A DNA stretch of 64,000 nt. It comes from an uncultured Kiritimatiellota bacterium (GTDB taxonomy: Bacteria > Verrucomicrobiota > Kiritimatiellia > RFP12 > DVOR01). Every line of letters begins with the position of its first letter. The first letter of the stretch is position 1. Shown in pieces: positions 1,859-14,942 of the stretch. Position numbers and translations under genes: made by a program. Below the pieces are notes generated by a model. It was not told the origin of the DNA. It was given only the letters and a program-made list of their open reading frames with translations, and searched no databases. Where the stretch lies: assembly GCA_944391055.1 (NCBI GenBank), contig CALXSF010000007.1:62001-126000 (forward strand), read 5' to 3'.

Positions 1859-1887
1859 TTGACAAGGTTGTTCGGAAAGGCTAATAT
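1859..1887 (+). promoter_or_regulatory. Sigma70-type promoter of the chuW-like/ECF cluster with a palindrome over the -10
   Basis: TTGACA at 1859-1864 and TAATAT at 1882-1887 are separated by exactly 17 bases. This is the closest match to the sigma70 consensus in the window. The -10 lies inside a perfect 12-base palindrome, GCTAATATTAGC (1880-1891), which is a good candidate for an operator. Transcription would start near 1894, giving a leader of about 40 bases to ATG 1935. Confidence 0.8.
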
Positions 1888-1934
1888 TAGCGCGTTTTAA
1901 TTCAAGGCCCACCGTGGGCAAGGAAGTGAGACGT

Positions 1935-3245
1935 ATGGATGCTTTTCTGTTGCCGACCGACCGTGCGGAGCTGCTGAGGCGGCTCTCGGCGAAGGTGGCC
2001 CCGCATGGGGGGGATGTGCCGATGGGGCCGGCGCGGCCGGGGGAGGGGCCGGATCCGCGGGAGGCTTGGGGGCGGGCGGTGCCGACGGAGGGTCAGCCGC
2101 TGATCCTCTACGTCCACGTGCCGTTCTGCGTGAGCCGCTGCGCGTTCTGCGGCTTCTACGCCCATCGGACGGACGAGGCGGCGCTGGAGGCCTACGCGGG
2201 GCGGTTGCTGAAGGAGATCGCGCGTGAGGCGGATCGGGGTGTCTTCACGAAAAAGCCGGTGGACGTGGTCTATTTCGGCGGGGGGACGCCGACGGCGCTG
2301 GGAGCCGACCAGTTGCGGCGGGTGATCGGCGCGATTTATGAGCGCTTCAACGTGGCGCCGGATGTGGAGTTCACCGTCGAGGGGCGCATCTATGCCTTCG
2401 ACGACGCGCGGGTGCGGGCGTGCCTGGAGTCGGGCGCGACGCGCTTCTCGTTCGGCATCCAGAGTTTCCAGACGGAGCTGCGGCGGAGCCTCGGGCGGCG
2501 GAACAGCCGCGAGGAACTGCTCACGCGCCTGGGCGAGATCAAGGGCATCTGCGGCGACAGGGTCGCGCTGGTGGCCGACCTGATTTACGGCCTGCCGGGG
2601 CAGACGCAGGAGCAGTGGATGGAGGAGAACGTCAAGACCGTCCACGACTCGGCGCTCGACGGCGTGGATCTCTACTCGCTCAAGGTCTTCCCCGGCCTGC
2701 CGCTGGCCAAGCGGATGGAGAAGGAGGGCTGGGACGAGGCGGAGCGGGCGGCGCGCCACGCGGCGGCCTGCGACTGGCTGGCCGGGCAGGGGTGGCGGCA
2801 GCTTTCCTGCACGCATTGGGGGCGCAACGCACTGGAGCGCAACCGCTACAACCATTGGGCCAAGACGGGGGCGGACATCGTGCCCTTCGGCTGCGGCGCG
2901 GGCGGTTTCGTCGGCGACGTCGCCTTCATGCAGACGGGGGACCTGGAGGCGTGGGGCAGGGCCGTGGACGCGGGCGAGAAACCCCTTGCCATGGCGATGC
3001 CCAAGCCCGCCGGCCATCGCCTCCGTGCCAAGCTCACGGATCAGATGGAACGCGGGCTCTTCCGTCCCGACGATTTCCCGGGCGCCGGCCTCTCCCCGTT
3101 GCTGGAGAATTGGGAGCGGGCCGGCGTCTGGGCCTCGCGCCCCGACGGGGGCTATCGGCTGACGCGCCTGGGCGAGTATTATCAGACGCGGCTGACGGCG
3201 TTGCTGGCCGGCGCGCTCTTCTCCGGCGGGATGGGGGGCAGGTAA
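1935..3245 (+). CDS. Radical-SAM heme-degrading methyltransferase, ChuW/HutW-like (anaerobilin synthase family)
   Basis: A 436-residue HemW-like radical-SAM enzyme. The 4Fe-4S motif is C65-x3-C69-x2-C72, followed by the SAM-binding GGGTP at 115-119. A C-terminal region (HWGRNALERNRYNHW and FGCGAGGF) follows the TIM barrel. HemW itself (heme chaperone) and HemN (coproporphyrinogen dehydrogenase) are relatives. ChuW/HutW is preferred because the gene heads an operon with a membrane importer and a flavodoxin, the arrangement known from anaerobic heme-opening systems, where ChuW cleaves and methylates heme to anaerobilin and releases iron. ATG 1935 is chosen over GTG 1914 because AAGGAAGTGAG precedes it. 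Distinguishing ChuW from HemW needs family profiles, so the functional call is moderately sure. Confidence 0.75.
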   Translation: MDAFLLPTDRAELLRRLSAKVAPHGGDVPMGPARPGEGPDPREAWGRAVPTEGQPLILYVHVPFCVSRCAFCGFYAHRTDEAALEAYAGRLLKEIAREADRGVFTKKPVDVVYFGGGTPTALGADQLRRVIGAIYERFNVAPDVEFTVEGRIYAFDDARVRACLESGATRFSFGIQSFQTELRRSLGRRNSREELLTRLGEIKGICGDRVALVADLIYGLPGQTQEQWMEENVKTVHDSALDGVDLYSLKVFPGLPLAKRMEKEGWDEAERAARHAAACDWLAGQGWRQLSCTHWGRNALERNRYNHWAKTGADIVPFGCGAGGFVGDVAFMQTGDLEAWGRAVDAGEKPLAMAMPKPAGHRLRAKLTDQMERGLFRPDDFPGAGLSPLLENWERAGVWASRPDGGYRLTRLGEYYQTRLTALLAGALFSGGMGGR

Positions 3246-3246
3246 G

Positions 3247-3807
3247 GTGCGGCTTCCGCGCAAAGGGTGTTACTACTGGGACACCGAGAGCCTGATCGTC
3301 GTGGGGCTCTTCACGGCGCTGGGCAAGGCGGCCTCGCTCCTCGTGGCCCTGCTGGGCGGGGGGATGAACCCGGTGACGCTGCTGCTGAAGAACGGCATCG
3401 CCACGGCGCTGCTGGTGGTGATGGTGGCGCGGGTGCGGAAGTTCGGCACGCTGCTGCTCTACACGCTGGTGGCGCAGGTGGTGTCGTTCCTCATGACCGG
3501 CGGCATCATGATCGGCACCCTGCCGCTCTACCTGCTGGGCGCGCTCGTCGCGGACGCGCTGATCGCGCTGTGCGGGGGCTATCGCAAGGTGTGGGCGGTG
3601 CTGCTGGGGGTGGCGGTCTACGACGCCTTCGGGCGGGTGCTGGGGCTGGCGATGTCGTTTCTGATGGCGCGCGAGAACGTCGGCATGGTCGGCGTGGGCG
3701 CGGTAATCGTGGCTTTCGGTTACCTGGGGTGCCTCTTGGTGGGGCTGCCCTGCGGGGCCAAATTCGTGAGGGAGCTCCGCCATGCGGGCATCATCCGTGA
3801 GCTCTGA
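3247..3807 (+). CDS. ECF transporter substrate-binding (S) component
   Basis: A 186-residue membrane protein with five to six hydrophobic helices and short loops, resembling the MptS/Trep_Strep class of putative ECF S components. S components bind the substrate in the membrane and dock on an ECF module (T plus two ATPases). It starts with GTG one base after the chuW-like stop, and the T component begins inside its last 26 bases, so the three transporter genes are translationally linked. Substrate cannot be read from the sequence. The neighbouring heme-opening enzyme and flavodoxin make heme or a related tetrapyrrole the leading candidate; a vitamin precursor is the alternative. Confidence 0.75.
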   Translation: MRLPRKGCYYWDTESLIVVGLFTALGKAASLLVALLGGGMNPVTLLLKNGIATALLVVMVARVRKFGTLLLYTLVAQVVSFLMTGGIMIGTLPLYLLGALVADALIALCGGYRKVWAVLLGVAVYDAFGRVLGLAMSFLMARENVGMVGVGAVIVAFGYLGCLLVGLPCGAKFVRELRHAGIIREL

Positions 3808-4603
3808 GGCGCTGGACATCCGCACGCGGCTGCTGATCTCGCTGGCCGTCTCGGGCGTGTCGATCTACCTGAGCGGCACGGGGCCGCTGCTGGCGCTCGG
3901 CGCGGCGACGCTGCTCTACGTGCTCACCTCGGGGCGCTACAAGGTCATCGTGGTCTCCTACCTGGCCGTCTGCGCGATGATGGCCTTCACGGTGGGCGTG
4001 ATCGTCGTCTCCTTCAAGATCGGCGAGTGGCTGGTGGCCGGCACGGCGTGGGAGCGCTCGGTGGCGATGCTCAAGCCCGCGATGCTGGGCAACTTCCACA
4101 CCCCCTTCCTGCGCATGATCCCGGCGCTCAACGTGCTGCTCGCCATCGGGCTGGACTTCTCGGTGCAGCGCTTCGTGGGGGCGATGAAGAGCCTGCGCCT
4201 GCCGCGCGTGGCGCTGGTGCCGCTGATGGTCTTCTGCCGTTTCGTGCCGGAGTTCGTCGACGTCATCCGCCAGCTGCGCGACGCGGTTCGGATGCGTGGC
4301 TTCTCCCTCAGTTTCGGCGCGGCGCTCCTCCATCCCGTCCAGGCGGTGCGGCTGACGGTGGTGCCGCTGACCGTCCGCACGCTCCGCATGGCCGACCACC
4401 TCTCCGTGGCCGCCGAGATGAAGCGCGTGGGCTACGCCCGGCGCCCCACGCAGCTGCTGGCCCTGCGCTTCGGGAAGGCCGACTTCGCGGCGCTCGTGGC
4501 CGCGGCGCACATCCTCGCGGCGCTCTGCCTCTGGCAGGCCCTCATCCCCGCCACGCCCTACGGCCCCCGTGCCGTCCAAACGGAGGAGGCCGCCCATGAG
4601 TGA
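3782..4603 (+). CDS. ECF transporter transmembrane (T) component, CbiQ/EcfT family
   Basis: A 273-residue EcfT-like protein. It has N-terminal membrane helices, then a cytoplasmic coupling region with two short Arg-containing motifs: VRMRGF near residue 170 and KRVGYA near residue 218. In the family these transmit ATPase movement to the S component. A last hydrophobic helix (ALVAAAHILAALCLW) lies near the C-terminus. It overlaps the S gene by 26 bases and the ATPase gene by 8 (ATGAGTGA). It is expected to form the ECF complex with its two neighbours. Confidence 0.85.
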   Translation: MRASSVSSEALDIRTRLLISLAVSGVSIYLSGTGPLLALGAATLLYVLTSGRYKVIVVSYLAVCAMMAFTVGVIVVSFKIGEWLVAGTAWERSVAMLKPAMLGNFHTPFLRMIPALNVLLAIGLDFSVQRFVGAMKSLRLPRVALVPLMVFCRFVPEFVDVIRQLRDAVRMRGFSLSFGAALLHPVQAVRLTVVPLTVRTLRMADHLSVAAEMKRVGYARRPTQLLALRFGKADFAALVAAAHILAALCLWQALIPATPYGPRAVQTEEAAHE

Positions 4604-6038
4604 GTGGATGATCCGGGCCGAGGACGTGGCCTACCGCTATCCCTTCGCCGAGGCCCCCGCGCTGGAAGGCGTCTCCTTCCGTCTGCGGCGGGGTGAGGCC
4701 CTGCTCGTGACCGGCGCGAGCGGCTGCGGCAAATCGACCCTCCTGCGCCTGCTCAACGGCCTCATCCCCAACCACTACAAAGGTGTGCTCACCGGCCGCC
4801 TCGACGTCGCCGGCGAACGCCTCCCCGTGCCGATGGAGGCGCTGGCCAAGCGCGTCGGGACCGTCCTCCAGAACCCCGACGAACAGTTCTTCGCCACCAC
4901 CGTGGAGGAGGAGGTCGCCCTCACGCTCGAATGGCAATGCCGCCCGCGCGAGGAGATCCGCCGCCGGGTGGATGGCGCCCTGCGCGTCCTCGACCTTACC
5001 GACCTGGCCCGCCGCTCCGTCTTCACCCTCTCCTCCGGCGAGAAGCAAAAGACCACCCTCGCGGCCATCCTCGCCGCCGAGGCCGACCTGGTGGTGATGG
5101 ACGAGCCGACGGCCAACCTCTCCCCCGAGGCCACCGAGGCGCTCGCCCGGCTCGTCCTCCGCCTCAAACGCCATGGCGTGACGCTCGCCATCGTCGACCA
5201 CCGGCTCTACTGGCTCCGCGGCGTCCTCGACCGCCTCCTCGTGCTCGAGCGCGGCCGCGTCGTCTTCAACGCCGAGCGGATGCCCGGCGGCGAGGATCCG
5301 CTCGACCTCCTGGCCGCCCACCCCGACGTCGCCCGCTGGGGGCTGCGCCGCGTGAGCGTCTCCCGCCCCGACCTGCCGCCCGCCGACACCTTCGGCGCGC
5401 CCGCCGTCGAGATCCGCGGCCTTGGCTTCCGCCATTCCAAAAAGGGCCGCGTCATCTTCCGCGACTTCTCCGCGCGCCTCCCGCGCGGCGCGGTCACGGC
5501 CGTCGTCGGCGCCAACGGCGCGGGCAAGACGACCCTCGCGCGGCTCCTCTGCGGTCTGGCCAAGCCCCAGGCCGGCGAGATCCTCCACGAGGGGCGCGCC
5601 CTCCGCCGCCGCGACGTCCGCGCGCACGCCGCCTTCGTCATGCAGCAGATGGATATCCAGCTCTTCATGCGCACCGTCCGCGAGGAACTGCTCTTCTCCG
5701 CGCCGCGCGCGGTGCCCCGCGCCGACCGCGAGGCCGAGGCCGAGCGCCTGCTGGGCGTCTTCGGCCTGGCGCATTTGGCCGGGCGCCACCCGCAATCCCT
5801 CTCCGGCGGCGAGAAGCAGCGCCTCGTCGTCGCCTGCGCGCTGATGAAGCGCCCCGCGCTGCTGATCCTGGACGAGCCCACCAGCGGGCTCGACGGCCGC
5901 AACATGCGCGTCATCGCCGCGCAGCTGGCGCAGTTCGCCCTCGACGGCGGCGCGGCCCTGCTCATCACCCATGACCTTGAACTGTTGGAACTGGTGGCCC
6001 AGTGCCAACTCCGCATCGAAAGGAACGAAACCCCATGA
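4596..6038 (+). CDS. ECF transporter ATPase, fused double ABC domain (EcfA-EcfA')
   Basis: A 480-residue protein made of two ABC ATPase domains in one chain. It replaces the usual pair of EcfA1 and EcfA2 subunits. Domain 1 has Walker A GASGCGKS (40-47), signature LSSGEK and Walker B VVMDEP. Domain 2 has Walker A GANGAGKT (305-312), signature LSGGEK and Walker B LILDEP. Both Q-loop regions are of cobalt/ECF type (LQNPDEQFF in domain 1, MQQMDIQLFM in domain 2). It powers import through the S/T pair encoded directly upstream. The start ATG 4596 (MSEWMIRAE) overlaps the T stop, and its own stop overlaps the flavodoxin start (ATGA). Confidence 0.9.
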   Translation: MSEWMIRAEDVAYRYPFAEAPALEGVSFRLRRGEALLVTGASGCGKSTLLRLLNGLIPNHYKGVLTGRLDVAGERLPVPMEALAKRVGTVLQNPDEQFFATTVEEEVALTLEWQCRPREEIRRRVDGALRVLDLTDLARRSVFTLSSGEKQKTTLAAILAAEADLVVMDEPTANLSPEATEALARLVLRLKRHGVTLAIVDHRLYWLRGVLDRLLVLERGRVVFNAERMPGGEDPLDLLAAHPDVARWGLRRVSVSRPDLPPADTFGAPAVEIRGLGFRHSKKGRVIFRDFSARLPRGAVTAVVGANGAGKTTLARLLCGLAKPQAGEILHEGRALRRRDVRAHAAFVMQQMDIQLFMRTVREELLFSAPRAVPRADREAEAERLLGVFGLAHLAGRHPQSLSGGEKQRLVVACALMKRPALLILDEPTSGLDGRNMRVIAAQLAQFALDGGAALLITHDLELLELVAQCQLRIERNETP

Positions 6039-6544
6039 AAACGCTCGTCGTCTACTCCACCGCCACCGGCAACACCCGCAAGGTCGCCGAGGCCATCGCC
6101 GCCGCCCTCCCCGGCGCCGAACTCCACGACGTCAAGACCGCGCCCGCGCCCGACGCCTACGACTTCGTCGCCATGGGCTTCTGGGTCGACAAGGGCGGCC
6201 CCAACAAAGAGGCCGCCGACTACATGAAGACCATCCGCGGCAAGAAGGTCTTCACCTTCTTCACCCTCGGCGCCAACCCCGACTCCGCGCACGCGCGCTC
6301 CTGCGCCGAGGCCGCCCCCAAGGCCTATGGCGAGGGCACCGAGCAGGTCGCCGCCTTCTGGTGCCAGGGCGCCATCGCCCCCAATCTCATCGCATGGATG
6401 CGCAAGATGCCCGCCGGCAACCCCCACGCCCCGACCCCCGAGGCCGAGAAGCGCTGGGCCGAGGCCGCCAAGCATCCCGACGAAACCGATCTCCAGCACG
6501 CCGCGCAGGCCGCCGCCGAGGCGCTCGCCAAGGCCCAGGCCTGA
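6035..6544 (+). CDS. Flavodoxin-family protein of the heme cluster
   Basis: A 169-residue flavodoxin-like fold beginning MKTLVVYSTATGNT. The phosphate-binding loop STATGNT (8-14) holds FMN. The next conserved segment, YDFVAMGFWVDKGGPNKEA, resembles the flavodoxin 50s loop. Flavodoxins donate electrons, and in known anaerobic heme-degradation operons a flavodoxin partner supplies the radical-SAM enzyme or reduces the linear tetrapyrrole product. ATG 6035 overlaps the ATPase stop by 4 bases, so it is the last member of the chuW-like/ECF operon. An in-frame start at 6002 would add 11 residues inside the ATPase gene and is not favoured. Confidence 0.85.
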   Translation: MKTLVVYSTATGNTRKVAEAIAAALPGAELHDVKTAPAPDAYDFVAMGFWVDKGGPNKEAADYMKTIRGKKVFTFFTLGANPDSAHARSCAEAAPKAYGEGTEQVAAFWCQGAIAPNLIAWMRKMPAGNPHAPTPEAEKRWAEAAKHPDETDLQHAAQAAAEALAKAQA

Positions 6545-6577: not shown

Positions 6578-7768
6578 ATGGACACACACCTCAGACACAC
6601 CAAACGCCACGCGGGCTTCACGCTCGTCGAGCTCCTCGTGGTCGTCGCCATCATCGCCGTCATCGGCGCCGGCGTCGCGGTCACCTACCGCAACCTCGAC
6701 GACCGCGCCAAGACGGCGATGGAGATGAACGACTGCTCCACCCTCATGACCGTCATCGGCCACTGGAGCGCCATCAACGACGGCGCCCTCATCAACAAGC
6801 TCGACTCCCTCATCGACACCGAGGGCCACATGTACCACAACATGCCCTCGTCCATGGGGTCGATGAACCTGACGAACGTCACCCCGATGTCGAGCTCCGG
6901 CATGGGCCTCACCGGGCCCGTCGGCTACACCTGCATGGCCCAGCCCGCCCCCGACGAGGTCATCGAGGCGCTCGCGAACTCCGGCCTCACGCAGGCCTAC
7001 CTCCACCGCGTGGACGCCACCGACGCCAACGACTCCACCTTCGAGATGACCGGGATGATGCAGGGCGACATGGACACCTCCGAGACGCTCTGCTCCCTCG
7101 CCAGCCAGGCGGACACCGCCGAGGCGGCCACCGCCAACGAGTTGGTGAGCCAGGCCGAGACCCTTCGCGCGGAGTTGCAGGCGCAGCTGGACGACAGCAC
7201 GACGTATCCCTCCCCCTCCGTCGTTTTCACCCCCAGCGAGGGCTCCGCGCAGACCTTCACGGACATGGCGTCGCTCAACACCGCCATCCAGGAGGCGCAG
7301 GCCATCGTGGACGGCGGCAACCGCCTCAACGAGCTCTGCTTCATCTACCCGGGCGGCGGCGCGCAGATGATGGGGGCGACCATGCCGATGAACCTCACCG
7401 ACGAGATCATCTCCAACTGCGGCCTCACCAACGACGAGGTGGCCCTCCCCACCCAGTCCAATGACCAGAACGTCACCGAAGGCCGCCGCTACTACCTCGT
7501 GGTGATGGGCCTGGGGCGCTTCAGCTCCATCTACAGCGGCAAGGCCGTCCGCGTGGACACTCCCGCCTACGGCAAGCGCCAGGAGCAGAACAACACGGTC
7601 TACAACCGCTACCTCGTCGTCATCAAGGTGCCCACCTCCGGCTATAACTCCATGACCGGCGCGGGCGACGACACCTGCTCCGTGGCCGCCGTGCTCACGC
7701 CCCAGGGCTACACCGTCGCCTCCCTGCGCGACAACTACATCTCCGACACCGCGAAGATGAAGGACTGA
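6578..7768 (+). CDS. Type IV pilin-like protein 1 (large prepilin)
   Basis: A 396-residue prepilin. The leader MDTHLRHTKRHAG ends at a prepilin peptidase site, giving mature FTLVELL with Glu at +5 and a hydrophobic helix (VVVAIIAVIGAGVAV). The globular part is long and rich in Thr, Ser, Asp and Asn, with several Met-rich stretches and few charges. The N-terminal 35 residues closely match those of the next gene, including GAGVAVTYR against GAGVAVTYG, which suggests duplication. It opens the pilus operon, 33 bases after the flavodoxin stop with AAAGGAAA as ribosome site, and no separate promoter is seen. It could be the main pilin or a large minor pilin or adhesin. Confidence 0.85.
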   Translation: MDTHLRHTKRHAGFTLVELLVVVAIIAVIGAGVAVTYRNLDDRAKTAMEMNDCSTLMTVIGHWSAINDGALINKLDSLIDTEGHMYHNMPSSMGSMNLTNVTPMSSSGMGLTGPVGYTCMAQPAPDEVIEALANSGLTQAYLHRVDATDANDSTFEMTGMMQGDMDTSETLCSLASQADTAEAATANELVSQAETLRAELQAQLDDSTTYPSPSVVFTPSEGSAQTFTDMASLNTAIQEAQAIVDGGNRLNELCFIYPGGGAQMMGATMPMNLTDEIISNCGLTNDEVALPTQSNDQNVTEGRRYYLVVMGLGRFSSIYSGKAVRVDTPAYGKRQEQNNTVYNRYLVVIKVPTSGYNSMTGAGDDTCSVAAVLTPQGYTVASLRDNYISDTAKMKD

Positions 7769-7791
7769 GGAGCCCCGCCTTGAGGACGGCC

Positions 7792-8637
7792 ATGCCCAAC
7801 CCCCGACGCCCGCGCCGCGGTTTCACCCTCGTGGAGCTGCTCACGGTCATCGCCATCGTGGCGGTGGTGGGGGCGGGCGTGGCCGTCACCTATGGTCGCG
7901 AGACCCTCGTGCGGGCGAGGCGCCAGATGACCTTGGCCGAGATGGGCCGCATCCGCGACGCCTTCGCCCGCTTCCACGCCGACAACGCCCCGCGCCTTCT
8001 CTCTGGCGTCCATGCGCCAAACGACAGCGAGGTGTTCCCCTCGTCGGACTTCCGCCTCACCTTTTCGGGCGGCGACCGCCCCGACGCGGGCGACCGCACC
8101 TACGGCATGCTCGAGTTCTACGAGCGCTACGGTCTCTGGCCGCTTCTCCAGCCCTCCGTCGCCGAGGACGGCGAGCGGCTGGAAGACGCCGACTTCGTCG
8201 TCTTCGGCGAGCCCGACCCCCTCACCGGCGAGGGCTGGCACGGCCCCTACGCCGACGCCCCCAGCCGCGTGGCCTGCGTGGCCGACGGCGCCTACGGCAC
8301 GCTCACCCCCGCCGGCGACGGCGCGAGCGACCCCGTCTTCCCCCAGATCGCCACCCGTTGGGATGGCTTCTACCGCGTCCTCTACCTCGAGCACTGCAAG
8401 GACGAGGCCGACCTCACTCAACCCATCTACCGCCGCCTCTTCCTCGTCTGCGCCGAAAACCCCGAGGATTGGGACGACTTCGACGACGAGGAACTCGGCA
8501 CCCTCACCGGCAACCGCCGCCTCGGCGCCGACTCCGGCCCCCTCGACCTCGCCACCGGCGCGCTCCGCCCGCGCGACGACGCCCGCGGCCTGACCTTTGT
8601 GGAGCTGCTCAACCTCGACATTTGGAGGACGCCGTGA
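7792..8637 (+). CDS. Type IV pilin-like protein 2
   Basis: A 281-residue prepilin. The leader MPNPRRPRRG is followed by FTLVELLTVIAIVAVVGAGVAV, so Glu sits at +5 after cleavage at Gly. ATG 7792 is chosen rather than TTG 7780 because GAGG lies at the right distance before it. The soluble domain is acidic and rich in aromatic residues. Its segment around GEGWHGPYADAP recalls the WxGPY turn of GspG/PulG-type pseudopilins. It is probably a minor pilin assembled by the PilB/PilC machinery encoded downstream. Its N-terminus is nearly a copy of the preceding pilin. Confidence 0.82.
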   Translation: MPNPRRPRRGFTLVELLTVIAIVAVVGAGVAVTYGRETLVRARRQMTLAEMGRIRDAFARFHADNAPRLLSGVHAPNDSEVFPSSDFRLTFSGGDRPDAGDRTYGMLEFYERYGLWPLLQPSVAEDGERLEDADFVVFGEPDPLTGEGWHGPYADAPSRVACVADGAYGTLTPAGDGASDPVFPQIATRWDGFYRVLYLEHCKDEADLTQPIYRRLFLVCAENPEDWDDFDDEELGTLTGNRRLGADSGPLDLATGALRPRDDARGLTFVELLNLDIWRTP

Positions 8638-9626
8638 CGCGCCGCGGCATGACGCTCGTCGAGCTGCTTGTCGTCCTCGCCATCCTGGCGGGGCTGACGG
8701 CGGCGGTGATGGCCGGCGCGGCGGCGACCCGGGAGAAGGCGCGCTACGACCGCACCGCGCGCGACGCCGCGGCGATGGCCGAGGCGCTCACCCGCGCCGA
8801 CGGCCTCTCGCTCGTCTCCGATCTTGGCCTCGCGCCGGATTCCGCCGAGGCGCTCTGCCTGCTCTTCGGCGCGCGCCTGCCCGCCGAGACCGTGACGCCA
8901 GACCCGGAAAACCCCGGCGGGACCGTCACCTCCGTCGCCGTCCTCGACGTCCCCGCGTGGGCCCTCCGCGCCGCGCCGCTCATCCCCGCCGCGACCACCC
9001 CGGCCTACTCGGCCGCGGAGATCGCCGCCGCCGACGCCGCGGCCATCACCAACCGTTTCGCCGCCGTCACCCTCGGTGCGGGCTGGCGCGGGCCCTACTG
9101 CGCCGGCGACGCCCTGGCCGCCGACGATTCCGACCCGGACAACCCCATCCCGTATGTCGTCGACGGCTTCGGCGGGCCGTGGGAGTTCGACGGCGAGACG
9201 CTCGTCTCCCGCGGCCGCGACCGCATGGACGACGCGCTCCGCGCGGCCCAGGACGCCATCGACTGGCGCGACCGCGACCGAACGTTCGCCGTCCCCGCGC
9301 CCGCGCCCACCCTTTCGCTCACCGTCGAGGCCGAGGGCGGCGCCGCCGTCCAGCTGCTGCACGTCTTCGTCCATCAGCCGGCGCTGACGGTGGGCGCGAC
9401 TTCGGCCTCGGTGGGGCTGGCCTGCCGTTATTACCGTTTCGAGAACGCCGACTCCGTGCTCCTCTCCGAGGGGCTCACCGTGGGCGAGCGGGTCGTCTTC
9501 GCCCTGGCCGAGACCGCCTCCGGCGCGCAATCGGCCCCCGCGCGGCGCGTGCTCCTCCGCCCCGGCGCCAACACTGTCAATCTCAGCCTCCACCCCGCCA
9601 CCGCCTATCCCACCCCGACCCCCTGA
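8634..9626 (+). CDS. Type IV pilin-like protein 3
   Basis: A 330-residue prepilin starting with GTG 8634, which overlaps the previous stop as GTGA and is preceded by GGAGGA. The leader is very short (MTRRG), then MTLVELLVVLAILAGLTAAVMA. The residue after the cleavage Gly is Met rather than Phe; Glu at +5 is kept. A WRGPYCAGD turn near residue 155 resembles the GspG-like pseudopilin fold. The C-terminal third (from about residue 220) is rich in beta-prone Val/Thr/Leu and may be a separate domain. It is likely a minor pilin or pseudopilin. Confidence 0.8.
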   Translation: MTRRGMTLVELLVVLAILAGLTAAVMAGAAATREKARYDRTARDAAAMAEALTRADGLSLVSDLGLAPDSAEALCLLFGARLPAETVTPDPENPGGTVTSVAVLDVPAWALRAAPLIPAATTPAYSAAEIAAADAAAITNRFAAVTLGAGWRGPYCAGDALAADDSDPDNPIPYVVDGFGGPWEFDGETLVSRGRDRMDDALRAAQDAIDWRDRDRTFAVPAPAPTLSLTVEAEGGAAVQLLHVFVHQPALTVGATSASVGLACRYYRFENADSVLLSEGLTVGERVVFALAETASGAQSAPARRVLLRPGANTVNLSLHPATAYPTPTP

Positions 9627-9628
9627 CC

Positions 9629-10972
9629 ATGCGCAAGACCAAACCCTCCAAAACGCCCGCCGTCCTCATCCATGATGGGGCGCGGTGGCTGCTCCCCGGG
9701 GAGCCCGGGCGCGCCGTCGCCGCCCCGCCCGACGCCCCGCCCCCGGCGCTGCTCGCCGCCGTCTCGGGCCACGCCTCCCTCCGTTTCCTGCTCGCCGGCG
9801 AGGTGCGCCGCGTCGACGCCGCCCTCCCCCCCGGCGCCCGCTGGGCCGAGGCGCAGGCGCTCGTGGCGCAGGAGGCCGCCGACCAGACGGGCGCCGACCC
9901 GGCGACGCTTCTTTGCGCGGGCCAGGCCTACGGCGAGGGGCGCGCCGCGGCCCTGCTGGCGGGCGTCTTCCCCATGGGGCGCGCCGAGGCGCTCCGCGCA
10001 GCCGCCGAGGGCGCGGGGCTGCGCTTCGGCGGCGTGGCGTCGCTGGAGCTGGCGTGCCTGGCGGCGTGGCGCGGACGCCCCGCCGCGGGGGGCGCCGCCG
10101 TGGCGCTGGTGGGGCAGGGGGGCACGCTCGTCGCCGCGCCCCCGCCCGCCGCGCCGGTCCCGGTGGCGGGCGGTCTGCGCCACGCCGCCGCCGACCCCGC
10201 GGTCTGGCTGGCGCGCTTCACCCAGGGCGCCCGCTTCCTGGACGCCGCCGCGCCGCTCCGCCTGGTGGTCTTCGCCGAGGCGGATCCGGGCCTGGCCGGG
10301 GCGCTCCGCGCGCAGGGCGGCTTCGCGGACGTCGCGGAGGCGCCGTGCGACGCGCTCTTCGCCGAGGCCGCGCGCCTGGCCGCCGAGGCCCGGCCGAACC
10401 GCCTGGGCGGGGCCCTCCCGGTCGCGAATCCCTGGGAGCCGCGCAAACGTTTCTCCCACGGCTGGATCGTCGCGCCGTGCGCGGCGCTGCTGGCGCTGCC
10501 GTTTCTTTATGGGGGCGCGCAGGATTGGCTGATGGCCCGCGAGGAAGCGCGCTACCGCGCCGCCGCCGAGGCCTTCCTGCCGCTGGAGCGGGCCGTCAAG
10601 GCCGCCGAGGCGCGCGAGGGCGCCGCGCGGCGCGCGTTGGAGGGCGAGCGCGCGGAGCAGACGGCGTTGGCGGCGCGGCGGCGGCCGTTGGCGGCGTTCG
10701 TCCAGACGGCCTATTTCTTCTGCCGGCACGCGGGGCCGAGCGTCCGGCTGGAGGCGCTCGCCGAGCGGGATGGGCTGGTGACGGCGCGGGGCGTCTACGC
10801 GGATCCGGAGGACGGCGTGCGCCTGAACGCGGATCTGGCGGCCTTCGCGGGGCGGGAGGGGCTGCGCGTGGCGCGCACCGTCGTCTCCGAGGGCAAGGAC
10901 GCCGAGGGGCTGCCGCTCTCGCGCTTCGAGATCGCCGTGGATGGGTCGCGGCTTGGGGAGGCCGGGCGATGA
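9629..10972 (+). CDS. PilM/PilN-like fusion protein of the pilus operon
   Basis: A 447-residue protein with a cytoplasmic N-terminal part of about 275 residues, one membrane helix near residues 280-297 and an alpha-helical, Ala/Glu/Arg-rich periplasmic part. This is the topology of a PilM-type domain joined to a PilN-type domain. It stands directly before a PilO-like gene in the normal pilM-pilN-pilO position. Sequence similarity to PilM is not obvious by eye, so the call rests on topology and gene order. The stop overlaps the next start (ATGA). It would form the inner-membrane alignment complex linking PilB/PilC to PilP/PilQ. Confidence 0.6.
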   Translation: MRKTKPSKTPAVLIHDGARWLLPGEPGRAVAAPPDAPPPALLAAVSGHASLRFLLAGEVRRVDAALPPGARWAEAQALVAQEAADQTGADPATLLCAGQAYGEGRAAALLAGVFPMGRAEALRAAAEGAGLRFGGVASLELACLAAWRGRPAAGGAAVALVGQGGTLVAAPPPAAPVPVAGGLRHAAADPAVWLARFTQGARFLDAAAPLRLVVFAEADPGLAGALRAQGGFADVAEAPCDALFAEAARLAAEARPNRLGGALPVANPWEPRKRFSHGWIVAPCAALLALPFLYGGAQDWLMAREEARYRAAAEAFLPLERAVKAAEAREGAARRALEGERAEQTALAARRRPLAAFVQTAYFFCRHAGPSVRLEALAERDGLVTARGVYADPEDGVRLNADLAAFAGREGLRVARTVVSEGKDAEGLPLSRFEIAVDGSRLGEAGR

Positions 10973-11769
10973 GGGCGTGGTTTGCGAGGACCAACAGCTG
11001 GCATTGGCTGTGCGCCGCCGTGGCGGTGAGCGCGCTTGTCTCCGCCTTCCTTTGGAAAGGCCAGATCGACCGCGTGGCCCGCGAGCGCGGCCCCGCCCGC
11101 GAGCGTCAGGCCGGCCATCTCGCCGCGCTCCGCGCGCTGAGCCCCGACCAGCCCGCCGCGCTCGACCGCCGCGCCGCCGCCCACAAGGCCGACCTCGCCG
11201 CGCTGCGGCGGGAGGTCGAGGCCGCCGGCTTCGCGCCCATCCCCGAGGGCGACGGTGCGACGCTGGCCGTCAAGAACGCCCTTGACCGCGCCCTCACCGC
11301 CCGCGGCCTGCGCATCCTCTCCAGCGCCATCTCGGTGGCGGGGGAGGAGGTGCCCCGCGCCGCCGCCAAGCCCGCCGCGCAGGCCGCCCCGCGGCGCGTC
11401 TCGGCCGACGCCTACGCCCGCGAGGTTCAGCGCGCCGCCGCGAACCTCCAGGGCGCCATGAAGGACGATTTCCTGCGCGACGCCCAGCGGAAGATCGCCC
11501 AACTCCGGGCCGCCGAGGCCCGCGAGGCCAGGCGCTCCGCCAAGCGTGCCGCCGCCGCGCCGTCCGCGCCGCAGGCCGCCCCCGCGCGTCTCTCCTTCAA
11601 GACCGAGGAGGTGGCCTACACGGTGGAGGGCGAGTTCCGCGACATGTTCCTCTTCCTGGTGGGCGAGACCTTCCGGAAGCCTTCCTATCACCTCAAGGAC
11701 ATCGCCGTCACGCGTCCCGAGGGGGGCGCCACGCGCATGACCTTCACGTTGCAGGCCAACCACCGATGA
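10969..11769 (+). CDS. PilO-like inner-membrane pilus assembly protein
   Basis: A 266-residue protein with a short cytoplasmic N-terminus, one membrane helix at about residues 11-27, a long Arg/Ala/Glu-rich coiled-coil region and a C-terminal alpha/beta domain that begins near FKTEEVAYTVEGEF. This matches PilO architecture (helix, coiled coil, ferredoxin-like domain). It lies between the PilM/N-like gene and pilB, overlapping both by 4 bases. It is expected to pair with the PilN-like region in the periplasm. An Ala/Arg/Lys-rich linker (residues 185-200) is lower in complexity. Confidence 0.6.
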   Translation: MRAWFARTNSWHWLCAAVAVSALVSAFLWKGQIDRVARERGPARERQAGHLAALRALSPDQPAALDRRAAAHKADLAALRREVEAAGFAPIPEGDGATLAVKNALDRALTARGLRILSSAISVAGEEVPRAAAKPAAQAAPRRVSADAYAREVQRAAANLQGAMKDDFLRDAQRKIAQLRAAEAREARRSAKRAAAAPSAPQAAPARLSFKTEEVAYTVEGEFRDMFLFLVGETFRKPSYHLKDIAVTRPEGGATRMTFTLQANHR

Positions 11770-13217
11770 GCGCGGGCGAGACGTTGGACGTGGCGCGCGT
11801 GCGCCCCCCGCAGGCGGCGCTGGCCCTCCTGAACGCCCGCTCGGCGCGCGGACTGGGCGCCCTGCCCGTGGCCCTCGCGCCCGACGGCACGGTCACGGTC
11901 TGCGTGGCCGACGGCACGGACTTCGCCCTGCGCGACCGCGTGGAGCGGCTGCTGGCGGGCCATGCCGTACGCTTCGTGGAGGCGGCCGACCCGGCAGCCT
12001 TCCCCGCCGCCCTGCGCGAGAACTACCCCGACGCGGCGCTCAACGGCACGCTCGACCGCCCGGAGGAGCTCTTCGCCTATATGCTCCGCCGCGCGCTGGC
12101 CCTCAACGCCAGCGACATCCATGTCTCCCCCGACGAGGCGGGCGCGCGCATCCGCCTGCGCGTCGACGGCCGCCTGACGCCCGACCGCCGCGAACCGCCC
12201 GAGGCCGCCGCCGAGTTCGTCTCCTACATCAAGGTCTTGGCCAAGCTCGACATCGCCGAGCGCCGCGCCCCGCAGGACGGCAACATCGACTTCCCGCTCG
12301 ACGGCCGCACCGTCGCCCTGCGCGTGGCCACCGTGCCCACCATCCACGGCGAGCACGTCACGCTCCGCATCCTCAGCCAGACGGCCCAGGCCAGGCAGTT
12401 GGAGCGGCTGGGGGATCTGGGGATGAACCCGGGGCAAAGTACCCTCTTCCGCCGCGCCCTGCACGCGCCCAACGGCGTGATCATCATCTCCGGCCCCACC
12501 GGCTCGGGCAAGACCACCACCCTCTACGCCGCGCTCCGCGCCCTCGCCGCCTCCGACGCGCTCCACCTGGTGAGCATCGAGGACCCCGTGGAGAAGCCCG
12601 TCGCGGGGGTGACGCAGATCAAGGTGGACGGCCGCCAGGAGCGCGTCTCCTTCGCCAAGGCCCTCCGGAGCGTCCTCCGCCATGACCCCGACGTGGTGAT
12701 GATCGGCGAGATCCGCGACGGCGAGACGGCCGCCACCGCCCTGCGCTCGGCCCTCACCGGCCACCTCGTCCTCACCACCCTGCACACCAACAGCGCCCCC
12801 GCCATCCTCACCCGCCTGACCGACCTCGGCGTGCCGCCCTATCTCGTGGCCGCGACCCTCCGCCTGGCGATGGCCCAGCGCCTGGTGCGCCGCCCCTGCC
12901 CCGCCTGCATGACCTGGCGCCCCGCCACCGAGGGCGAGTGCCGCGCCTGCGGCTGGGACCCCGCCGACCCCCCGCGCCTCCCCAAGGCCAACGGCTGCGC
13001 CTACTGCGGCGGCACGGGCTACGCCGGGCGCACCGCCGTCTACGAGATGCTTCGGGTGGACGACGCCGTGCGCGCCGCGCTCTTGGGCGGCCGCCCGCCG
13101 ACGATCGCCGACCCCGCGCTCACCCTGCGCGGCGACGGCCTGCGCAAGGCGCTCGCGGGCGAGACCACCCTGGAGGAGGTCGCCGACGTCATCGACAACG
13201 ACCTGATGCCGCTATGA
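11766..13217 (+). CDS. pilB: Type IV pilus extension ATPase PilB/GspE
   Basis: A 483-residue secretion ATPase that hydrolyses ATP at the inner membrane to drive pilin polymerisation. Walker A GPTGSGKT is at 243-250. The Asp box follows (SIEDPVE), then Walker B MIGEIRDGET and the His box LTTLHTN. The N-terminal MshEN-like domain is short. The zinc-binding region has three CxxC pairs (CPAC, CRAC, CAYC) where many relatives have two; the last leads into the usual GGTGYAGR. It overlaps its neighbours by 4 bases on each side. The pilT gene at the operon end favours a pilus rather than a type II secretion role. Confidence 0.92.
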   Translation: MSAGETLDVARVRPPQAALALLNARSARGLGALPVALAPDGTVTVCVADGTDFALRDRVERLLAGHAVRFVEAADPAAFPAALRENYPDAALNGTLDRPEELFAYMLRRALALNASDIHVSPDEAGARIRLRVDGRLTPDRREPPEAAAEFVSYIKVLAKLDIAERRAPQDGNIDFPLDGRTVALRVATVPTIHGEHVTLRILSQTAQARQLERLGDLGMNPGQSTLFRRALHAPNGVIIISGPTGSGKTTTLYAALRALAASDALHLVSIEDPVEKPVAGVTQIKVDGRQERVSFAKALRSVLRHDPDVVMIGEIRDGETAATALRSALTGHLVLTTLHTNSAPAILTRLTDLGVPPYLVAATLRLAMAQRLVRRPCPACMTWRPATEGECRACGWDPADPPRLPKANGCAYCGGTGYAGRTAVYEMLRVDDAVRAALLGGRPPTIADPALTLRGDGLRKALAGETTLEEVADVIDNDLMPL

Positions 13218-14440
13218 GCCGCTTCCGCTACGAAGGGATCCAAGGGGGACGCAGGGCCCGCGGCTTCGTGGAGGCCGAGGACGCCCCGGCGGCGCGCGCC
13301 GCCCTGCGCGCGCAGGGCGTGCTGCCCGTCGCCGTGGCCCCCGCGCCGGGACGGGCCGCCGGGCCGTGCCCGCGCGGGCCGGTGGGGCGCGCGCTGAGCC
13401 GCTGGTTCGTGGGGCGGCTGGCCGTGGAGCAGGCCTTCATGCAGCTGGTGGTGCTGCTGCGCGGCGACGTGGCGGTGGTGGAGGCGTTGGAGACGGTCGC
13501 CGAGCTCTCCGATGGTTATCTGGCGCAGGCCTTGGCCGAGACGGCGCAGGCCGTGCGCGGCGGCAGCTCCCTGGCCAAGGCGATGCGCGCGGCGATGCCG
13601 TGGGTGGGGGAGCTCTACCTGGGGCTGGTGGCGGTGGGCGAGGCCAACGGCTCCCTGCCGCGGATGTTCGATTACTGCGTGGGGCTGATGGCCAACCGCC
13701 GCAAGCTCCGGAACGAGGTCATCCGCGCGCTCACCTATCCCGCCATCGTCGTGCTTATGGGGCTGGGCGTGGGGTGGTACGTCAGCGCCGTGGCCATCCC
13801 GCAGATCGTCTCCGTGATGGGCGACCCGGGGCGCCTCCCGCCCATCACCCGCTCCCTGCTCACCACCAGCGAGTGGGTGCGGAGCGACGGTTATTGGCTT
13901 ATCCTCGGCCCTGTGCTTTTCGCCGCGGCCTTGGCGCTGCTGCGGCGCCTGCCGGCCCTGGGCCTTCTCTTCGACCGCGTGGGGCTGGCGCTCCCGCTCT
14001 TCGGCAAGGTGGCGCGCTTCTCCGGCAACGCCCTCTTCAACCACACCCTCGCCCTGCTCATCGAGAGTGGTATCTCGGTGGTGGAGTCGCTGGCGCTCAT
14101 CCGCGGCACGCTGGCCAACGCCTTCTACCGCAGGCAGGTCGCCGCCGCCCGCGCGAGCGTCCTCGCCGGCAAGCCGCTTTCCGAGGGGCTCGCCGCCACC
14201 GCCCTCGGCCGCCTCTCCCCGCTCTCCAAGGCGCTCGTGCGCGTGGGCGAGAGCTCCGGCAACCTCGCCGACGGCCTGCGCTACGCCGGCGATTACTACG
14301 CACAGGCGCTGGCCCGCCGCCTGGATCTCCTGGGCAAGCTCGTCGAGCCCGCGCTCGTCATCGTCGTCGGCGGCATGGTCGCCTATGTCTACGTCGCCTT
14401 TTTCATGGGCATGGCGGCCATGAACGCCGCCGCAAGCTGA
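13214..14440 (+). CDS. pilC: Type IV pilus inner-membrane platform protein PilC/GspF
   Basis: A 408-residue T2SS-F family protein with the usual duplicated domain. The first cytoplasmic half (about residues 70-185) has the family pattern GSSLAKAM and PWVGELYLGLVAVGEANGSL; the second repeats it (GKPLSEGL and LVRVGESSGNL). Three long hydrophobic segments lie near residues 178-205, 230-255 and 385-405. It sits in the membrane under the pilus and transmits rotation of PilB to the growing fibre. The N-terminal MSRFRYEGIQGGRRARGFVEA is the typical extended start of this family. The start overlaps the pilB stop. Confidence 0.92.
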   Translation: MSRFRYEGIQGGRRARGFVEAEDAPAARAALRAQGVLPVAVAPAPGRAAGPCPRGPVGRALSRWFVGRLAVEQAFMQLVVLLRGDVAVVEALETVAELSDGYLAQALAETAQAVRGGSSLAKAMRAAMPWVGELYLGLVAVGEANGSLPRMFDYCVGLMANRRKLRNEVIRALTYPAIVVLMGLGVGWYVSAVAIPQIVSVMGDPGRLPPITRSLLTTSEWVRSDGYWLILGPVLFAAALALLRRLPALGLLFDRVGLALPLFGKVARFSGNALFNHTLALLIESGISVVESLALIRGTLANAFYRRQVAAARASVLAGKPLSEGLAATALGRLSPLSKALVRVGESSGNLADGLRYAGDYYAQALARRLDLLGKLVEPALVIVVGGMVAYVYVAFFMGMAAMNAAAS

Positions 14441-14453
14441 AAGGAAATCCCCC

Positions 14454-14942
14454 GTGAGACGCCTCCCCCTGACGCCCTGCCTTCTTCTCCTCGCCGCCTC
14501 GGCCGCCGCCGCGATCCCGCTCTCCGAGCCGCCGCAGAAACTGCGTGACGCGGAGGGCAACCCGGAGGTGGGGCTGGTCGACCCCTTCGTCCCGCGCGGC
14601 TCCGGCGAGGACCCGGCCGCGTCCGGCGACGGCCCCGCCCGCACCGCCGCCGGCGAGCTCCCGGAGGGCTTCCGCATCCTGGCCATCTCCGTCCCCGAGA
14701 AGGGCGAGCCCACCGCGCTCGTGAGCATGGGCGAGGACGAGGAGCCCACGCTGGTGCGCCAGGGCGACCAAGTGCGCGTGCCGCGCGGCGACCCCCGCGC
14801 CCGCCGCCGCGCCCGTGCCGCCGCGCCCGACCCCAACGCGCGCTTCACCTTCTACCTCTACGTCAAGACCATCGCCCCCACCTACATCGAGGTCTATCAC
14901 TCCAAGGCCCGCCCCGACGACACGCAAATCCTCCGCTGGTAA
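14454..14942 (+). CDS. PilP-like periplasmic pilus assembly protein
   Basis: A 162-residue protein with a signal peptide (MRRLPLTPCLLLLAASAAAA), a Pro/Gly/Asp-rich linker and a small C-terminal beta domain that begins near GFRILAISVPEKGEPTALV. A single compact beta domain on a flexible linker, placed just before the secretin, is the PilP/GspC arrangement, which connects the PilN/O platform to PilQ. There is no lipobox cysteine at the signal cleavage site, unlike many PilP lipoproteins. The start is GTG 14454 with GAAAGGAAA upstream. The assignment is by topology and position. Confidence 0.6.
   Translation: MRRLPLTPCLLLLAASAAAAIPLSEPPQKLRDAEGNPEVGLVDPFVPRGSGEDPAASGDGPARTAAGELPEGFRILAISVPEKGEPTALVSMGEDEEPTLVRQGDQVRVPRGDPRARRRARAAAPDPNARFTFYLYVKTIAPTYIEVYHSKARPDDTQILRW

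Follow-up and report, generated by a model that had tools for sequence, protein, structure and literature searches.

The window – a stretch of 64,000 nucleotides on contig C7 of G000, the 2.15 Mb draft genome of an uncultured Kiritimatiellota bacterium – carries a five-gene operon that we read, with a probability of nearly four in five, as an iron-regulated heme importer of the energy-coupling factor (ECF) type that feeds the anaerobic degradation of heme for iron. Heme as the imported substrate, the hand-over of heme between the proteins and the iron regulation are the inferred parts of this reading, which is otherwise carried by the identities of the genes, their conserved linkage, their recurrence in other lineages and a conserved heme-ligand histidine. 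The genes – for an enzyme of the radical S-adenosylmethionine (SAM) class, the substrate-binding (S), transmembrane (T) and fused double-ATPase (AA) parts of an ECF importer, and a flavodoxin – occupy 1935–6544 on the + strand, exactly as a first-pass annotation of the bare letters had placed them, and are tightly packed, with a gap of a single base between hutW and the S gene and overlaps of 26 (S/T), 8 (T/AA) and 4 bases (AA/flavodoxin). Genomes and loci of the survey are cited below by G and L numbers. The features are:

1859–1887, + strand: sigma-70-type promoter, TTGACA-17-TAATAT, with 10 of 12 consensus matches and TTGAC invariant in congeners
1871–1884, + strand: possible DtxR-type operator, TTCGGAAAGGCTAA, one mismatch to TTAG-N6-CTAA, between the -35 and -10 boxes
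1935–3245, + strand: hutW/chuW, predicted anaerobilin synthase (class C radical SAM methyltransferase), 436 aa (TIGR04107)
3247–3807, + strand: ECF S component of the Trep_Strep family, proposed heme-binding subunit, 186 aa (PF09605)
3782–4603, + strand: ECF T component, CbiQ type, 273 aa (PF02361)
4596–6038, + strand: ECF A components, two ABC ATPase domains in one chain, 480 aa (ABC_tran twice, TIGR04520)
6035–6544, + strand: predicted HmuF/FldH-type heme- and FMN-binding flavodoxin, 169 aa (PF12641, FldH 8g64)

The enzyme, the flavodoxin and the importer

Judged by its sequence, the product of 1935–3245 is a ChuW/HutW anaerobilin synthase, the opening of heme to anaerobilin being its predicted activity. 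It scores 403.2 bits against TIGR04107 (ChuW/HutW), a narrow margin above the curated cut-off of 400, but stays below the cut-off of the HemW family TIGR00539 (146.1 bits, cut-off 205.4) and reaches only 118.7 bits against HemN, so that the ChuW/HutW-like identity proposed in the first-pass annotation is the one that the profiles favour. Across the cassette relatives in the phylum, TIGR04107 scores range from 383 to 435, and close relatives of the window protein come from metagenome-assembled genomes of uncultured Kiritimatiellae. Identity amounts to 41% with the annotated Rahnella hutW product (over 91% of the length) and to 36% with E. coli ChuW; the latter shares with the window protein the CxxxCxxC radical SAM motif (C65-x3-C69-x2-C72), which, together with 46 other positions, is invariant in nine diverse HutW proteins, E. 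coli ChuW among them. For ChuW, an aspartate is reported to be critical to activity. HutW is related to both HemW and HemN, and its score in the window lies near the cut-off; the enzyme might accordingly be taken for a HemW heme chaperone or a HemN-like coproporphyrinogen dehydrogenase, and the operon for one of heme synthesis or insertion. This is very improbable in view of the gap between the scores (403 bits against 146 and 119), the 36–41% identity to the enterobacterial ChuW/HutW proteins and the presence of a separate HemN/HemW-type protein on contig C13 of the same genome, and the HemW/HemN identity was rejected. As a separate observation, a PCP_red domain (PF08369), familiar in other contexts as part of protochlorophyllide reductase subunit B, stands at the start of two HutW open frames (L037:8632–9000 and L128:473–720).

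The flavodoxin is best read as HmuF, for which binding of heme and flavin mononucleotide (FMN) is predicted. The 6035–6544 product scores 171.8 bits against PF12641, and its sole strong match among solved structures is 8g64, FldH of Fusobacterium nucleatum (E = 5.5e-18), whose heme ligand His134 aligns with H131 of the window protein; the equivalent histidine is kept in all homologues covering the site, members of hmuTUV-type operons among them. FldH and HmuF are paralogues that bind both heme and FMN, deliver heme to HmuW and reduce anaerobilin (PMC10404700). The first-pass annotation correctly placed a flavodoxin in the operon, but its generic type gives way to the HmuF/FldH-like one, and heme carriage and anaerobilin reduction are likelier roles than plain electron donation – a revision that strengthens the heme reading beyond the form in which it was first put forward. 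A BilS identity (NF045594) was rejected, at 97.7 bits against a cut-off of 155. Elsewhere in the phylum, at L209:11699–13312, an HmuF-type flavodoxin is continuous with a CbiK-type cobalt chelatase in one open frame of 537 aa, which lies about 2.4 kb from hutW.

The importer has the composition of a group I ECF system, with S, T and a pair of ATPase domains side by side in one operon, here at 3247–6038. The S component scores 42.4 bits against PF09605 (Trep_Strep; gathering cut-off 28.7), a family named only as putative S components rather than one with a proven vitamin substrate. Its AlphaFold2 model shows a six-helix core (predicted local distance difference test score, pLDDT, 82), and the PDB offers two convincing matches to this model, each of them an ECF S component (5edl and TmRibU 5kc4), albeit with modest template-modelling scores (0.57 and 0.51) and E-values not significant alone. 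The T component scores 38.3 bits against PF02361 (cut-off 25), and the AA chain contains two ABC_tran stretches, its best NCBIfam match being TIGR04520 (ECF_ATPase_1; 278 bits over the two stretches). Residues invariant among closely related hutW-linked S components include GGGxNP (37–42), which the prediction places in the first loop, R142-E143, placed in the last outer loop, and two positions of helix 5, D126 and R130; the more divergent S component of L173 does not keep D126. The pattern would be compatible with an anionic ligand.

Linkage of the S subfamily with hutW

A genome scan by enzyme drew mostly HemW-type proteins, and hutW neighbourhoods were collected by a separate genome search. 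Where long flanks were examined, hutW was found with S, T, AA and flavodoxin genes in eight other genomes of the same genus; in G013, hutW and S are separated by a match to an ABC-transporter ATPase (L028:6358–6978), so that the operon is not tight there. In another family of the order, represented by two genomes, hutW, S and T are kept in both G071 (on a short contig) and G091, the latter also with AA and with no flavodoxin match within its available 16 kb. Overall, the S subfamily is present in 12 of 289 genomes of the phylum, all 12 of which have hutW, S, T and AA together, and within this sample it occurs only beside hutW. Fisher's test of S subfamily against hutW gives p = 5e-15 by genome, a figure inflated by kinship, and 2e-4 by genus (3/3 versus 10/153). 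Any Trep_Strep match at all was confined, in a sample of 214 genomes, to eight, every one of them a cassette genome.

The same company is kept in Desulfobacterota, where the three strong S matches (G456, G488 and G967) all lie near hutW, T and AA, two of them (G488 and G967) additionally with a TonB-dependent receptor and an HmuF-type protein. The conservation of the gene set beside hutW is far beyond chance, and the co-occurrence of S with ChuW that the first-pass annotation had proposed to look for is what we find. No such S component turned up in 249 Bacillota genomes, in a weak search run without a positive control, and plasmid records contain hutW and no match to the S component. At L174:3280–13190, a weakly related S component, accompanied by T and AA, has as neighbours a TonB-receptor-like gene and a BchH/CobN-like chelatase whose score passes TIGR02025. 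Here, too, an ECF importer may be paired with tetrapyrrole-metal chemistry, perhaps of an HmuS-like kind; a cobalt system is the other possibility.

Other hutW genes have other neighbours. HmuTUV lies beside hutW, with no linked ECF set, in L166 and – within the window's own phylum – in L206, and some hutW genes, such as those of L202 and L204, have no linked importer. On a quick maximum-likelihood tree of HutW, made without bootstrap, ECF-linked proteins are scattered such that at least four changes are required, two of them forced by well-supported branches. Repeated origin, movement or loss of the ECF–hutW pairing is thus implied, and this speaks against one chance neighbourhood handed down by descent.

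It is in this light that an importer for an unrelated micronutrient or metal ion, merely co-expressed with the heme enzymes, has to be judged. The T component belongs to the CbiQ type, vitamins or metals are the usual cargo of ECF importers, and adjacency is no proof of a shared substrate; yet hutW was the neighbour wherever the S subfamily was found in the phylum, and likewise for every strong match in Desulfobacterota, the pairing recurs on separate branches of the HutW tree, and neither S nor T reaches the cut-off of any cobalt or vitamin family among the NCBIfam profiles. Such a cargo is distinctly improbable. Linkage only is the ground on which we infer that the S component takes heme; to that extent the substrate stands as the first-pass annotation left it, while the linear tetrapyrrole it had offered as an alternative found no support.

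Probable iron control and the outer membrane

The promoter upstream of hutW is one of 4 promoter-like matches in 10 kb, against 0.3 expected, and its -35 box keeps TTGAC without variation in an alignment of upstream sequences from nine congeners. The possible operator within it approaches TTAG-N6-CTAA, an inverted repeat contained in the DtxR consensus TTAGGTTAGCCTAACCTAA (PMC7762939). An exact copy of this repeat lies within 200 bases upstream of hutW in five of 19 ECF loci – L024, L026, L028, L128 (TTAGGTTAACCTAA) and, from Desulfobacterota, L158 – compared with a mean of 0.05 and a maximum of 2 in 1000 shuffles; as the motif was chosen after inspection and related loci are not independent, this figure is no formal test. 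Genes of the DtxR family lie near two Desulfobacterota loci (L158:1151–1669 and L159:3770–4525, the latter with a FeoA domain). Expression of the operon is probably released by a DtxR-family repressor under iron scarcity. A perfect palindrome at 1880–1891, GCTAATATTAGC, is not kept in most congeners and was set aside for TTAG-N6-CTAA, and regulation by a riboswitch was rejected, as Rfam gave no match in the window.

These signals also bear on the possibility that the importer carries some other tetrapyrrole – iron-free, another metalloporphyrin or a corrinoid – with HutW and HmuF either processing that compound or acting apart. ChuW does bind iron-free and zinc or cobalt porphyrins as well (PMC12670364), and the L174 set adjoins its chelatase and receptor genes; against this, the HmuF-type partner keeps the heme-iron ligand, an iron-type operator lies upstream in several lineages, and other hutW genes have HmuTUV at their side. 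We consider such a cargo unlikely.

If heme is the cargo, it has to pass an outer membrane first, and some loci suggest how. In Desulfobacterota, the S-T-AA-hutW cassette falls elsewhere on the HutW tree and lies mostly beside TonB-dependent receptors. Receptor genes are linked to the cassette in L126, L127, L158, L173 and L037, with ExbB/ExbD/TonB genes in several. In both L126 and L127 the receptor adjoins HmuF, HutW and the ECF genes, and in L126 ExbB, an ExbD-like gene and TonB follow. The row of L037, from Desulfobulbus, comprises a receptor-like gene, ExbB/ExbD/TonB-like genes, HutW, a flavodoxin, a putative S, T and AA; homology of its S component could not be demonstrated, and the locus is counted as an ECF–hutW pairing on the strength of its position and its homologues of T and AA only. 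Taken together, the layouts of L126, L127 and L037 would describe a full heme route for a diderm cell. Between the receptor-like gene and ExbB of L037 there is also a 151-aa gene (L037:6276–6731) with a weak, below-cut-off pyridoxamine-phosphate-oxidase match.

A proposed route for heme and its significance

By this reading of the operon as an iron-regulated heme importer, the Trep_Strep S component would bind heme in the periplasm, and the T component and fused double ATPase would drive its import, the job done elsewhere by HmuTUV. In the cytoplasm, the HmuF-like flavodoxin would hold heme through His131 and hand it over to HutW, which would methylate and open the ring by SAM-radical chemistry to yield Fe2+ and anaerobilin; the HmuF-like protein would then reduce the reactive anaerobilin with hydride from FMN, and the whole would run when a DtxR-family repressor lets go under iron scarcity. 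The hand-over steps are modelled on HmuF and HmuW of F. nucleatum. ALAD is present in the window genome and suggests some tetrapyrrole synthesis, which would make import more likely for iron than for cofactor supply.

Several observations weigh against this picture. HutW is barely above its cut-off, with some cassette relatives below it (383–393 bits); the S component, at 26.9 bits, falls under the 76.45-bit cut-off of the NCBIfam subfamily TIGR02185, and it offers no obvious axial heme ligand. Furthermore, a PF00593 receptor was found in none of the nine genomes of the window genus (G000, G001, G003, G005, G006, G007, G011, G013 and G015), in a search whose positive controls (G257, G232 and G488) matched. 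The same nine genomes keep the cassette and have Omp85, which indicates that an outer membrane is present; in this genus heme would cross by another route, or the receptor would be too divergent for PF00593.

With these points in the balance, we lean towards regarding the cassette as a distinct class of heme importer of diderm anaerobes, in which a Trep_Strep-derived S component with its own T component and double ATPase replaces HmuTUV, tied to anaerobilin synthase and HmuF, under DtxR-type iron control, present in at least two phyla and, in the window genus, with no known TonB-dependent receptor.

Among the neighbours of the operon, an upstream gene for the hydrogenase-maturation protein HydF fits an anaerobe. 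Downstream, 6578–14457 holds a type II secretion or type IV pilus cluster, with pseudopilin-like genes, a GspE/PilB-like ATPase (11766–13217) and a membrane protein resembling GspF.

Each part of the proposed system has known counterparts. An ECF heme importer has been described in Staphylococcus lugdunensis, with others reported in streptococci and Lactobacillus sakei, and the specificity subunits of these systems share little sequence (PMC7299338). Compared by description, the likeness lies in an ECF importer assigned to heme-iron acquisition; the hosts, however, are Gram-positive, and in the literature searched we found no linkage of these importers to an anaerobilin synthase. The hmuTRUVWF operon of F. 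nucleatum (PMC10404700) likewise joins a HutW-family enzyme, an HmuF-type heme/FMN flavodoxin and a heme importer, but import there relies on HmuTUV of the BtuCD type, a periplasmic binding protein and the TonB receptor HmuR, where the window has ECF S-T-AA and no receptor in the operon. E. coli chuTWXYU and Vibrio hutWXZ (PMC12670364) share the ChuW/HutW ring-opening enzyme with linked heme-handling proteins, although these partners are ChuY or HutX/HutZ instead of HmuF, and the heme importer that the chu operon supplies is of the ABC type. The HmuS de-chelatase operon of Bacteroides (PMC12583661) also serves iron release from heme in gut anaerobes, but its CobN/ChlH-related enzyme takes the iron and leaves the ring intact, with no radical ring opening. 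Among the putative S components known as Trep_Strep/MptD (PF09605, TIGR02185), that of the window is a Pfam member on a divergent branch. A literature search whose coverage left out most subscription papers found no ECF heme importer joined to ChuW, HutW or HmuW; against the searchable literature, the first-pass annotation's view of the pairing as unusual holds, though Gram-positive ECF heme importers exist (PMC7299338).

If the reading is true, it would give a substrate to this branch of the orphan Trep_Strep S components and would mean that heme uptake by ECF pumps extends to cells enclosed by an outer membrane – raising, in turn, the question of how heme passes that membrane without a TonB-dependent receptor. 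Import, ring opening and product reduction would be joined in one short operon, open to laboratory study as a whole system, and the operon would suggest an iron source for the uncultured Kiritimatiellae of the gut.

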